Of a stretch of DNA of 38,282 nucleotides, positions 2,911-34,791 are shown piece after piece. Under the pieces are notes generated by a model. It worked only from the letters and a program-made list of their open reading frames with translations, had not been told where the DNA came from and made no database searches. This DNA is from a virus: positions 1-38,282 of IMG/VR virus record IMGVR_UViG_3300036834_000075; one strand, 5' to 3'. A program made the translations under genes and the position numbers. Every line of letters begins with the position of its first letter. Position 1 is the stretch's first letter.

Positions 2911-3173
2911 GACGCGGTCCGCAGTCGCCGGCCGGGCGCCTCGCCTTTGATCCAGGCGTCGACGTCGTCGACGTGGATGCGCCACCTGCCGCGCGGCCGG
3001 TGACCGCGTAGGCCCTGCTTGTGGCGGCTGGATTCGTAGAGGCGCAGGGCGTCGTAGACGTACTGGTAGTGGTGCCGGGACCGGGCGGCGGCTTCGCGGA
3101 CGGTCATCCACGGGTCGACGGGCGCCGGCTGCCGGACGGGCTGCTCGTCGACGGTCTCGGTCTCGGCGGTCAT
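2907..3173 (-). CDS. Excisionase-family helix-turn-helix protein
   Basis: 88 residues. ATG 3173 overlaps the TGA of the Cro-like gene (3170-3172). Residues about 23-76 form a winged HTH of the excisionase/HTH_17 type: MTVREAAARSRHHYQYVYDA as the HTH, then a wing with GRWRIHVDDVDAWIKG. Members bind DNA as recombination directionality factors or as phage regulators. Placed as second gene of the lytic-direction operon, it is a good candidate for the excisionase, in competition with the gene at 6805-6999. Confidence 0.75.
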   Translation of the reverse strand: MTAETETVDEQPVRQPAPVDPWMTVREAAARSRHHYQYVYDALRLYESSRHKQGLRGHRPRGRWRIHVDDVDAWIKGEAPGRRLRTAS

Positions 3174-29853: not shown

Positions 29854-30098
29854 GGCTGGGTCTCCGTTCGGGTGTGTTGAGCCGTGTCGGCGGCTTGGAT
29901 GCGGCTGTCGTGTGGGTCTCGGCTGGCGCGGCCGCGTGCCCAGTGGCTGGGGCGTGTGCAGGGTTGGCGGGGTTGGGCGTGGCAGTGGGGGCATTCGACG
30001 AGGAGTGGGTTGGCGGTGATTTGGTCTAACGCGACTTCGCCGTCGGTGAGCCAGGTGAACAGGCCGGTGCCGCCGCTGTGCGGCTTGCGGCGCGTCAC
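29850..30098 (-). CDS. Small zinc-finger phage protein
   Basis: 82 residues from GTG 30098, overlapping the stop of the preceding gene (30095-30097). MTRRKPHSGGTGLFTWLTDG, then VECPHCHAQPRQPCTRPSHW, ARGRASRDPHDSRIQAADT. The C-x2-C ... C ... H-x12-H layout is the phage 'DNA-binding zinc finger' type also found fused to modification proteins. Confidence 0.7.
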   Translation of the reverse strand: MTRRKPHSGGTGLFTWLTDGEVALDQITANPLLVECPHCHAQPRQPCTRPSHWARGRASRDPHDSRIQAADTAQHTRTETQP

Positions 30099-30529
30099 GG
30101 CGGAGCCTGTCGGCGGGCCGCGACACGGGAAAGTTCGACTCGGGCGGCTTCTCGTGCGCGGATGTGCTCGGCTGAGCGTCGTGTGGGTCGGCGTTCGCGC
30201 CGGGTGCGCAGCGAGAACCGGTCGCCGACCATGGTCATGATCCGGTTGCGGGTGGTTTCGTCCGCTGGAGCAGCGGCAAGGAGTGCGGGCTGGTAGGGCG
30301 GTGGCATATCGGTGTCGCGCCGGCTTCGGAGGCGTTCGGTGATGTGGCCGGGCATGAGGAACGCGGTGGATTCGGCGTAATGGGCGTGTAGGGCGTCGAG
30401 CGCGGCGTCGAAGGTCCAGCCGGCTCGGACGGACGCTTCGGTCCAGGCGAGGACGGCGGCCTTGGCGGGGCGCCGGTTGTCGTAGGCCATGGCGGCGGCC
30501 AGGAGTTGGCGGATCTCGGTTTCGGTCAC
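30095..30529 (-). CDS. Replication-linked helical protein
   Basis: 144 residues from GTG 30529, overlapping the initiator stop. MTETEIRQLLAAAMAYDNRR, AVLAWTEASVRAGWTFDAAL, DALHAHYAESTAFLMPGHIT, ERLRSRR. The 'LL-AMAYDNR-P ... AHYAESTxFLMPGHI' arrangement is seen beside initiators of actinophages, where it may load the helicase, by analogy with DnaC-type loaders. Basic C-terminus. Confidence 0.7.
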   Translation of the reverse strand: MTETEIRQLLAAAMAYDNRRPAKAAVLAWTEASVRAGWTFDAALDALHAHYAESTAFLMPGHITERLRSRRDTDMPPPYQPALLAAAPADETTRNRIMTMVGDRFSLRTRRERRPTRRSAEHIRAREAARVELSRVAARRQAPP

Positions 30530-31299
30530 TGGTCACCTGCCGGTTGAAGTGCGAGCGTTTGGGCTGTTGGGGCGTCTCGAAGGAACTCGGCGATGCGGTC
30601 GTCGGTGCTGGGCGCGGTGGGTCTCGTGGTGCGGTGGTCGCGGTCGGTCTGGGCTTTGCGCATCCAGTAGCGCCAGGCGGCTGGCCAGTCGCGTTTGGCG
30701 GCGGTGCGTCCGCTGGCGGCGGTCCAGTAGTCGCGGAACTGGTCGGTCTCGGCGCGGCCGACGGATGGGGTGTGTTGCCTGGCCCAGGCGATCATGTCGT
30801 CGGTGGGCGCGAAGTCGTCGGGGATGCGGGTGCCTTTGGCTGCCCCCGTGGGGGCCCGCGAAGCGGGGGGGTTCTTTGTCTTTTGTTCTTTAGTAGTAGG
30901 AACAGGAACAGGAGACGGGTGACTCTCCGGGTGACTGTCACCGTGACTCACGCGTGAGTCACGCCGTGACGCAACATCATCTGAGCTGCGGTAATTCGCC
31001 TGGCGACGTCGCCAGGCTTCCCGTTTCGCTTCCACATAGGCACGTGTGCACTCTCGTGGCCACACGACGAATTGGAAGCCGCCGCGAGCACGCCGCCATA
31101 CCCTCGCGCGGACCAGCTCCTCCGGCGCCGTGTCCACCTGCGTGGTCAGCGAGGGCAGCTTCGAACTCGACACGAAACCATCGGTGGTGTGGCGTGCGGA
31201 GAACGAAGCGGCCCGCGCGTACAGCGCGATGCCAGCGTCGGATATGCCGTCGTAGAGGGGGTCGTCGTAGAACTCGTCGGGGAGCGGGAAGTGGGTCAT
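30526..31299 (-). CDS. Replication initiator protein
   Basis: 257 residues from ATG 31299. MTHFPLPDEFYDDPLYDGIS, GIALYARAASFSARHTTDGF, VSSSKLPSLTTQ: a winged-helix initiator N-terminal domain. A low-complexity linker (about residues 112-142, with repeated Ser-His) follows, then a C-terminal helical domain (PDDFAPTDDMIAWARQHTPS, DYWTAASGRTAAKRDWPAAW). The two-domain plan with a low-complexity linker resembles lambda O. The linker DNA contains an origin-like array, so the protein probably binds inside its own gene. Confidence 0.78.
   Translation of the reverse strand: MTHFPLPDEFYDDPLYDGISDAGIALYARAASFSARHTTDGFVSSSKLPSLTTQVDTAPEELVRARVWRRARGGFQFVVWPRECTRAYVEAKREAWRRRQANYRSSDDVASRRDSRVSHGDSHPESHPSPVPVPTTKEQKTKNPPASRAPTGAAKGTRIPDDFAPTDDMIAWARQHTPSVGRAETDQFRDYWTAASGRTAAKRDWPAAWRYWMRKAQTDRDHRTTRPTAPSTDDRIAEFLRDAPTAQTLALQPAGDQ
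30842..30971. other. Candidate replication origin inside the initiator gene
   Basis: Iterons: GTGACT at 30919, 30931 and 30943, exactly 12 bp apart; an inverted copy AGTCAC at 30957; GTGACG at 30966. Beside them lies an A/T-rich patch at 30871-30900. Two hairpins follow: GCCCCC-GT-GGGGGC (30842-30855) and CCCGC-GAA-GCGGG (30855-30867). The second contains GCGAAGC, the very stable DNA mini-hairpin known from phage origins such as phiX174. Order and placement in a linker-coding region parallel lambda ori within gene O. Confidence 0.55.
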
Positions 31300-32097: not shown

Positions 32098-32244
32098 TCA
32101 GCCCTCCCCGCAGTAGCAGCCGTCGCAGTTGAGGCAGGCGCCGCAACCGTCCTTGCAGCGCTCCCGTTGCAGGCAGCCGCACACGTTGAAGGCGCCGCTG
32201 TCGTCAACGCAGTAGCACTCACCGGGTTCGCAGTTACACGCCAT
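32098..32244 (-). CDS. Cys-rich, metallothionein-like mini-protein
   Basis: 48 residues from ATG 32244, one base overlapping the upstream stop (TGATG). Twelve Cys: MACNCEPGECYCVDDSGAFN, then VCGCLQRERCKDGCGACLNC, DGCYCGEG. Paired C-x-C and C-x2-C spacings with no aromatic core beyond two Tyr and one Phe. Could bind several Zn(II) ions, or be a knottin-like protein if exported, but there is no signal peptide. Between the candidate RecT and the coiled-coil gene. Confidence 0.75.
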   Translation of the reverse strand: MACNCEPGECYCVDDSGAFNVCGCLQRERCKDGCGACLNCDGCYCGEG

Positions 32245-33386
32245 CAGCCGGTCACCTCCGGCGCCTGGTCGAGGTTGGCCAGGTAGGCGTCGAGTGCCCG
32301 GTCGGGCTCGTCCTGGCTGGCGCAGCGGTCGAGCGCGTCGATGATCTGGCCGGCTTCGGCGAGCGTCAGTTGGCTCGCCGACGTGATGGTGCGGCCGATG
32401 AGCATGCCGAGGGTCGTGTGGCGCTCGGCCTCGGTGACCTTGCAGTTGGCCAGGGCGGCGTGGATGCGGGCCAGTTGCGGCTTGGTGACCATGACCAACT
32501 CGACGCGATGGACTGTTGGCTGCGGATCGCTCGTCGGTATGGCGTCGACCGGCTTGGTCGCCGGCTGGCGGTTGGTGATCTCGGTGGGCGTCACGACGTC
32601 GACGGGGAAGGCGTCGGCGACGGTGATGGTGCCTAGCTTGAGTGAGTCGCCCGTGATGGTGAGTTGTCCGACGTCCCAGGCGGTCCAGTTCGCCACCTTC
32701 TTGCCGACTTTCACTTCGAGCCGTGGCAGTTCGATGCCGAACCCGTTCTCGAATCCGCGCACGACACGCGCGATCCGCTGGGCCAGGGTCAATCCGTCGC
32801 CGGGGTTCTCGATGGTGGCCCGGCAGCGGGCCTCGGCGTCTTCGAAAAACCAGGTCGGCACGACGCGACGGATGCATTCCCGCAACCGGCGGGCAGCGTT
32901 GTTCGTGTTCAGTTCGTAGATGTCGCGTTGGTCGGCCAGGCGCTCGGCGACTTTCTGGCCGCCGACGGTCTTGTCGCGGACATGCTGCACGATGACGATC
33001 TGGCTAAACCGGGCGTTCGATTGGAGATCCCAGGCGTAGGCCAGCATTTCGGACTCGCCGGCGATGGGGTCCATGCGCAGCTCGGCGAGTCCGAAGTCGA
33101 CGTTGCCCCAGATGCAGGCGATCTCCTGGGCGAGTTTGATCGTCGGGCCGGTGACGATCTCCTTGCCGCGGGGGTACTGGTAGAAGGCGGAGTTGGCCAG
33201 TGACGGGCGGGCGCAGGCCTCGACCATGGCGCGGATGGCGGCCTGCACGTCGCGCGGGTACTGGCGGGCGATGATGACGGCGGCCTGGACCTGGGCGACG
33301 GCGCGGGACTGTTCGATCGCGGTGCCCTGCCCGACGCGGTCGGGGCCGACCGCCGGGGCTGGTAGCGCCATCTCGGTGGTGCTCAA
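32244..33386 (-). CDS. Candidate RecT-like recombination protein
   Basis: 380 residues starting at TTG 33386, which overlaps the exonuclease stop and lies 8 bases after AAGGAG; an ATG at 33371 is the alternative. Residues 20-210 resemble phage single-strand annealing proteins found after RecE-type nucleases: YPRDVQAAIRAMVEACARPS, AFYQYPRGKEIVTGPTIKLA, CIWGNVDFGLAELRMD, RDIYELNTNNAARRLRECIR. The C-terminal half includes a RecT-distant helical tail (RIHAALANCKVTEAERHTTL, GMLIGRTITSASQLTLAEAG). Annealing role is inferred from the partner gene. Confidence 0.65.
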   Translation of the reverse strand: MSTTEMALPAPAVGPDRVGQGTAIEQSRAVAQVQAAVIIARQYPRDVQAAIRAMVEACARPSLANSAFYQYPRGKEIVTGPTIKLAQEIACIWGNVDFGLAELRMDPIAGESEMLAYAWDLQSNARFSQIVIVQHVRDKTVGGQKVAERLADQRDIYELNTNNAARRLRECIRRVVPTWFFEDAEARCRATIENPGDGLTLAQRIARVVRGFENGFGIELPRLEVKVGKKVANWTAWDVGQLTITGDSLKLGTITVADAFPVDVVTPTEITNRQPATKPVDAIPTSDPQPTVHRVELVMVTKPQLARIHAALANCKVTEAERHTTLGMLIGRTITSASQLTLAEAGQIIDALDRCASQDEPDRALDAYLANLDQAPEVTG

Positions 33387-34264
33387 TGGACAAGCTCCTT
33401 CACTGCGTAGTCGCCGCGTTCGCGGGCGCGTTCGAACTGGATCTCGGCCCACGGTGGAATGCGGGTCAGGACGGGTTTGTCGCTGTAGCCGGGCCACGTG
33501 TCGGTTTCGACGCAGCGGCGGTAGACCTCGATGGCCTTGGCGTTCTTGACGGCGCCGATGGCGAGGGTTTCGGGGTGGATCTGGGCGACGGTCACGACGT
33601 AGGGCGGCGTCTTTTCCTGGAACACCAACAGGAATGCGGCCGAGGTGGCCAGTTCGAGTTCGAAGACGCCGTCAAGGTAGAAGTCGCCCTGCATGTGGTA
33701 GCCGCGGTCCTCGACCGCTTTCTCGATCTTCGCTTGCTCGGCCGAGGCGCAGGTCTTGTAGTCGGCCAGTAGCATCCGGCCGGCGGTGTCGTAGGGCAGA
33801 TAGTCCAGCAGGGCGCGGCGCATGATGCCGGTGCGTCGGTCGCGCCACACCAGGGTCTGCTCGGGCCGGCCGGCGCCGGGGGCGAACAGGGCGGCCGCGT
33901 AGGGATCGGCGAGTAGTGCGGCCGCCATGTCGTCGACGATCGCGGCGTCCTTGGCCAGCAGCGGGATATTGCCTTCCGCGTGCGCATCGGCCTTCGCGGC
34001 CTTGGCGGCGTTGGTTCGCCAGGAGTCGGCGTCGACCACGACGATCTCGGCGCCGACGCCGAGCACCTTATGGTGGGCGGCTTTCCCGAAGTCGAATTCG
34101 TCCTTGTGTTCGGGATGATCGGCGAGCCAACGGAACTTCGCCGGGCACGATGGCGCCAGCAGGCGGCGGGCACCGGTCGAGGACAGCGAGCCGCCCTCGA
34201 CCGGGTCCGCGTGGTAGACGTCCTCGGGTAGGTCGTAGACGCCCGGCTCGGTGATGAGGTCCAT
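33383..34264 (-). CDS. RecE-like PD-(D/E)XK exonuclease
   Basis: 293 residues from ATG 34264. MDLITEPGVYDLPEDVYHAD, SLSSTGARRLLAPSCPAKFR, FDFGKAAHHKVLG; then the catalytic core RALLDYLPYDTAGRMLLADY-KT with the D...D-x-K motif, followed by the helix AEQAKIEKAVEDRGYHMQGD. This is the Exonuclease VIII (PF12684) plan. It would resect double-strand ends and hand single strands to the downstream annealing protein. Confidence 0.88.
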   Translation of the reverse strand: MDLITEPGVYDLPEDVYHADPVEGGSLSSTGARRLLAPSCPAKFRWLADHPEHKDEFDFGKAAHHKVLGVGAEIVVVDADSWRTNAAKAAKADAHAEGNIPLLAKDAAIVDDMAAALLADPYAAALFAPGAGRPEQTLVWRDRRTGIMRRALLDYLPYDTAGRMLLADYKTCASAEQAKIEKAVEDRGYHMQGDFYLDGVFELELATSAAFLLVFQEKTPPYVVTVAQIHPETLAIGAVKNAKAIEVYRRCVETDTWPGYSDKPVLTRIPPWAEIQFERARERGDYAVKELVH

Positions 34265-34791
34265 CAGAACGGCTCTACGTCCGGGAAATCGTCGCCGGCA
34301 GCCCGCGCCTCGGTTGCTTCGTCGGCCGCCGTCATCGGTGAGAGCGCTGGCAGTTCCCACCGATGCACGGGTTCCGGCCGCGACTTGGTTGCAACGGCAC
34401 GCGCCATCACCTCCGTGGTCGGGGTGATCGCGTACACCGAGGCGGGGTTGTAGAGCTGGGTCGCGGCCGGCTCGGTGTTCGTGGGTTCGCCAGGGATATC
34501 CAGGCGCAGGAAGCCCCGGCCGGCGATCTCCTGCTCGGTGAGCCAGCCGGCGAGCCGACGGTGGCCCATCAGCTCAACGATCGCCCACCCGACGAAGCCG
34601 TCGGGCTCGATCGTGGGCGGCCAGTCGGTCGCGGCGAGGGTGTCGTCGCGGCCGCCGTTGAGCCACCGCACGCGGTTGGCAGCCTCGTCCTGATCGCCAT
34701 GGTCACTGTCGGGCTTCCAGTCGCCCGACGGCGCGTGGAAGCCGACCGTCCACAGGGTTGGCTCGGTTTGCATGTAGGTCCAGTTGGTCAT
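34264..34791 (-). CDS. Hypothetical early protein
   Basis: 175 residues from ATG 34791 with AAAGGA upstream. MTNWTYMQTEPTLWTVGFHA, PSGDWKPDSDHGDQDEAANR, VRWLNGGRDDT; end DDFPDVEPF. The 'LWTVGFYxPxGxWxPxSDxxDxxxAAxRVxWLNGG' head is frequent in actinophages without known function. One base of the stop is shared with the exonuclease ATG. Confidence 0.7.
   Translation of the reverse strand: MTNWTYMQTEPTLWTVGFHAPSGDWKPDSDHGDQDEAANRVRWLNGGRDDTLAATDWPPTIEPDGFVGWAIVELMGHRRLAGWLTEQEIAGRGFLRLDIPGEPTNTEPAATQLYNPASVYAITPTTEVMARAVATKSRPEPVHRWELPALSPMTAADEATEARAAGDDFPDVEPF

Follow-up and report, generated by a model that had tools for sequence, protein, structure and literature searches.

A phased iteron array within the replication initiator gene of a temperate actinobacterial phage, a probable origin of replication

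The replication initiator gene of an IMG/VR virus record of 38,282 bp (the whole of this stretch is referred to here as the window) contains an array of short, regularly spaced iterons whose occurrence exceeds chance. We regard this array as the probable origin of replication (replicator) of a temperate actinobacterial phage, placed inside the initiator gene as in phages lambda and SPP1, and assign this reading a probability of roughly 0.8. A lambda-like origin at this site had been proposed in a first-pass annotation of the DNA, and the proposal is supported by the protein family of the initiator (PHROG 2447), an adjoining A/T-rich patch, a next gene resembling one annotated as helicase loader and conservation of the array as DNA. 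The window carries integrase, terminase and tape-measure genes, which point to a temperate tailed phage.

The initiator gene, its predicted domains and the gene that follows it are located as follows.

30526 to 31299, minus strand: replication initiator gene, 257 aa, ATG start, PHROG 2447 match
31060 to 31299, minus strand: winged helix-turn-helix domain, residues 1-80 (AlphaFold2 model, block pLDDT mostly 93-98)
30961 to 31044, minus strand: long basic helix, residues 86-113 (AlphaFold2 model), the proposed iteron-recognition element
30574 to 30822, minus strand: C-terminal helical domain, about residues 160-242 (PHROG primosomal-protein-like; AlphaFold2 model)
30095 to 30529, minus strand: next gene, candidate helicase loader, overlapping the initiator stop and similar to DelaGarza gp44

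The initiator matches the replication initiation protein family PHROG 2447 (E=4e-24) over residues 1-228, i.e., over most of its length, and this family is matched by all members of the family alignment (31/31). An additional match, to phrog_3992, covers residues 134-221. In the structural model, residues 86-113 form a single helix, flanked by the winged helix on one side and a disordered linker on the other, and the last codons of this basic helix overlap the first iteron. Pfam and PDB sequence searches with the initiator returned nothing useful, including no significant match to any solved initiator structure, and no O-like PHROG or Pfam match, nor a significant PDB match, was found that would indicate homology to lambda O. 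The product of the next gene shares 35% identity over 72 residues with gp44 of Microbacterium phage DelaGarza, which is annotated as a helicase loader; PHROG and Pfam family searches gave no match of known function for this product, and its candidate role is taken from the annotation of this one relative. Upstream of the initiator (32244-34360, minus strand), an exonuclease VIII-like gene lies beside a gene with a weak RecT-like match.

The repeats themselves are as follows.

30919 to 30970, unstranded: iteron array, with GTGA steps at 30919, 30931, 30943, 30954 and 30966 and inverted GTCAC at 30937 and 30958
30942 to 30963, unstranded: perfect 22-bp palindrome in the central part of the array, CGTGACTCACG/CGTGAGTCACG

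Three GTGACT copies at exact 12-bp spacing and an inverted copy, as described in the first-pass annotation, were indeed found, at 30919, 30931 and 30943 on the plus strand and at 30957-30962, respectively. Altogether, six GTGAC/GTCAC pentamers fall within 30919-30970, whereas the 60-bp stretch of the window ranking second in density has three, and full-length windows simulated under a third-order Markov model had at most four. No other phased chain of at least three boxes, and no second array, occurs anywhere in the 38-kb record.

The codons of the initiator from about residue 110 on are made up of GTGAC/GTCAC boxes, and the repeats could in principle be a property of the protein, namely a Ser-His linker of low complexity with codons that repeat fortuitously. 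The window protein does show three Ser-His steps four residues apart. The steps between GTGA boxes, however, measure 12, 12, 11 and 12 bp and those between TCAC boxes on the coding strand 12, 11, 12 and 12 bp, so that the period is not strictly four codons and the reading frame of the boxes shifts within one array. When the same peptide was recoded synonymously 20,000 times, none of the recodings reached six boxes and one reached a phased chain of five. With arrays also continuing past stop codons in relatives (see below), we reject an origin of the repeats at the protein level, which in our view has almost no chance of being correct.

Next to the array lie the following elements.

30872 to 30910, unstranded: A/T-rich patch, the most A/T-rich stretch of the record, proposed as the unwinding element
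30898 to 30914, unstranded: short tandem repeats of AGGAAC units (CCTGTT on the coding strand), identified from sequence
30842 to 30867, unstranded: two adjacent small hairpins, GCCCCC-GT-GGGGGC and CCCGC-GAA-GCGGG, present but alone not significant

The A/T-rich patch noted earlier is genuine: the most A/T-rich windows of 36-50 bp in the whole record start at 30872-30875, adjoining the array. The GCGAAGC mini-hairpin is likewise present, at 30858-30864 within the second of the two hairpins, but it is unremarkable, as the window contains 13 copies of the heptamer on its two strands and 63 perfect 5-bp triloop hairpins, and the fold of the mini-hairpin is no better than those of shuffled sequences (z-score -0.85). 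It was dropped as evidence in its own right, being at chance level. A terminator-like site at 30855 was discarded as a mechanical match. No switch in GC skew coincides with the array, a result that neither supports nor refutes an origin since most genes there lie on one strand and the record is possibly incomplete.

Relatives were collected by a scan with four N-terminal domains; 80 of the 144 that it yielded were retained. A layout in which a winged helix and a long basic helix precede the iterons recurs over about 100 related loci; a C-run tract in most cases, an A/T-rich patch and, at some loci, a hairpin complete it. Matches are present in 38 of the 392 genomes of the family of Saccharopolyspora soli (genome G001, the source of locus L005), and an iteron query matches genes of Gordonia and Mycolicibacterium phages whose annotation is replication initiation protein. 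Six IMG/VR contigs contain the 20-bp palindrome core, which there lies in the linker behind wHTH-type domains of divergent initiator-type genes.

The first-pass annotation had named relatives that keep the amino acids but not the iterons as an outcome that would refute such an origin. The opposite was found: relatives keep the iteron DNA in shifting frames, even past a stop codon, and the encoded residues change. At loci of the TCAC type, the spacings are 11 bp (31 cases), 12 bp (35), 22 bp (3), 23 bp (7) and 24 bp (9), with four others, i.e., 85 of 89 equal 11 or 12 bp or double that, and the boxes fall in more than one reading frame at 20 of the 28 loci. These features indicate a rule of the double helix rather than of codons. 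In an IMG/VR contig whose N-terminal domain is 64% identical to that of the window (L002), the frame ends with TAG where an array of the same boxes starts; at another locus (L013), the initiator stop codon lies inside the array; and elsewhere (L029, L039, L045/046, L063/069-071) the frame stops ahead of the repeat tract, with arrays or tracts extending through non-coding DNA to the next gene. In the coding subset, iteron repeats exceeded a codon-shuffle null (p<=0.05) in 45 of 86 genes.

The elements that accompany the array are also shared. C-run tracts, e.g., (CCCGA)n, were detected at 73 of 100 loci and in 63 of the 86 genes of the coding subset (null mean 14.5, maximum 24); in the window, the corresponding position is occupied by the tandem repeats at 30898-30914. 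Among loci L026-L105, the C-run units CCCGA, CCCGT, CCCGTA and CCAAC occur downstream of most arrays, non-coding DNA included. The strand opposite these tracts could form G-quadruplexes in the relatives; GGG runs suited to such structures are absent from the window. An A/T maximum no more than 260 bp from the array start is much commoner in relatives than expected by chance (24/81 versus a background of 4.7% at the strictest cut-off). At some loci (23/80 at p<=0.05), the tract is followed by a hairpin, most often with a TAAC loop and with stems that are quite different. Hairpins with TNAC-like loops and wholly different stems lie just past the tract at L015, L025, L035, L036, L038, L052-L055, L098 and L100, and such differing stems suggest selection for structure.

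The position of the array bears on a further possibility, namely that it is an operator through which the initiator or another regulator controls transcription of the initiator/loader operon, the origin lying elsewhere. Palindromic boxes would fit a dimeric regulator, and in relatives with truncated frames the array or tract stands just upstream of the next gene. Moreover, Microbacterium phages MenE and Appa (L020 and L021, about 36-38 kb in the records) have extra small clusters of the same boxes about 10 kb from the initiator, one of those in MenE being near a gene boundary (a gene start), and clusters so far from the initiator suggest that the boxes may have other roles. Against an operator, the array in most relatives lies well inside the gene, at least about 300 bp past the start codon; a promoter scan for sigma-70-like sequences, the type it covered, found none near the array; five or six phased boxes beside an A/T maximum exceed what a simple operator needs; and the protein family is that of a replication initiator. 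We therefore consider an operator unlikely, and an origin the better explanation of the array.

If the array is the origin, initiator molecules would bind the phased boxes via their N-terminal part, with the long basic helix behind the winged helix reading the box sequence. At a box spacing of 11-12 bp, bound molecules would sit near one face of the helix and could assemble a nucleoprotein complex. Opening of the repeat tract and the A/T-rich patch beside the array would follow, and a DnaB-type helicase would be loaded by the C-terminal domain and the product of the next gene acting jointly. We infer initiator binding, opening of the patch and helicase hand-over, and with them origin activity at the array, by analogy with lambda and SPP1 (PMC7466680, PMC6316719).

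Box types vary from phage to phage. Initiators with another N-terminal domain (L003 and L004, about 2940-3035) have GGTGACACCGTGTCA-type repeats in the linker, and the linker DNA of Mycobacterium phage Panchino gp57 (L016) has CTCGCGAG-type repeats followed by GGAACAGGG tandem repeats. We asked which protein segment tracks the box type, using 70 dereplicated loci. The nearest neighbor shared the box type in 54 of 70 cases for the basic segment lying between winged helix and array, in 37 of 70 for the winged helix and in 22 of 62 for the C-terminal domain, compared with about 12, and at most 25, when labels were shuffled. We count this link between basic helix and box type in favor of the origin as well. 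When neighbors were restricted to those with a dissimilar basic segment, the winged helix dropped to 9/70, a chance-level value; when the winged helices instead had to be dissimilar, the basic segment retained 25/70, barely above shuffles. The box labels in this test were assigned partly by hand and relatedness was controlled only in part, and the following code linking helix and box is thus offered as a hypothesis.

RxRM: GTTCG
RxRQ or RxRK, then a small residue: TCACG
RxRQ plus an aromatic residue, or RxRV: TAACG
RxRL..Y: GAAACG
KKxRQR: GGGGAC
AGRxGG: GAAGCA
GNHxRWH...CxxC segment: GATCGGGT

The code was built on a first set of loci, partly by hand, and was then fixed for a second set. There, 26 loci had a prediction, and for 17 of them (one a tie) it agreed with the top-scoring box type; two of the failures were due to His being counted as aromatic. 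Locus L111, from this second set, has a winged helix close to that of the window (E about 2e-38), yet its basic helix contains KKRGQR and its boxes are GGGGAC; helix and array seem to have been swapped together. A broader proposal, which we hold tentatively and at slightly less than even odds, is that a modular replicator is common to actinobacterial phages, that a few key residues of its single long basic helix set the box sequence, that helix and array are exchanged jointly, and that the origin can leave the gene.

The same comparison bears on whether the repeats might simply mark a recombination joint, i.e., the seam at which N- and C-terminal domains of initiators are exchanged, with no role in binding. 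Similar arrays do precede different C-terminal domains. A joint, however, would be expected to be a single shared sequence, whereas the box type varies and tracks the basic helix far better than the C-terminal domain, and strict helical phasing would not be expected of it. This explanation appears very improbable to us.

Should the link between a recognizable array and a recognizable helix hold, origins could be recognized in the sequences of many actinobacterial phages and prophages. The helix-linked arrays would also provide a natural series for how initiator and origin change together, and the link would predict which phage replicons could recognize each other's origins.

Origins inside initiator genes are of an already known kind. 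Among open-licence papers, we found no published description of the actinobacterial family, of its 11/12-bp arrays or of the link between helix and box, and the annotation tables of the actinophage relatives examined list genes only, with no origin entries. In lambda and Stx phages, the origin lies in gene O, with iterons and an A/T-rich tract midway along this initiator gene and a loader-type gene next to it (PMC7466680); the window likewise has iterons and an A/T-rich patch within the initiator gene, which is followed by a candidate loader gene. The lambda iterons are imperfect inverted repeats of about 19 bp, four in lambda and six in Stx (PMC7466680), whereas the boxes of the window are short and 11-12 bp apart; in addition, O-like PHROG families each match at most 2 of 31 members of the window initiator's family. 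In Bacillus phage SPP1, oriL within gene 38 has direct repeats and an A/T-rich unwinding element, with the gp39 loader downstream, and a second origin is situated about 13 kb away (PMC6316719). The window resembles oriL in its repeats and A/T-rich patch within the initiator gene and its candidate loader downstream, but differs in initiator family, host phylum and box sequences and has no second array; the two origins of SPP1 may be compared with the extra box clusters of MenE and Appa. The only mapping study of mycobacterial prophage origins that we found among open-licence papers concerns the RepA prophage replicons of Miko and Jeeves, for which a cis-acting origin was suspected within or beside repA, as in lambda, and no repeated motifs were reported between the tail genes and parS-L (PMC7157519). 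The window is likewise an actinobacterial phage replicon, but its record has an integrase, unlike these extrachromosomal prophages with parABS (PMC7157519). Finally, Appa gp42, Gordonia phage Zipp gp57 and Panchino gp57, annotated as replication initiation protein, RepA-like or HTH, are the same or related initiators, and their linkers contain arrays of the window's or other box types.
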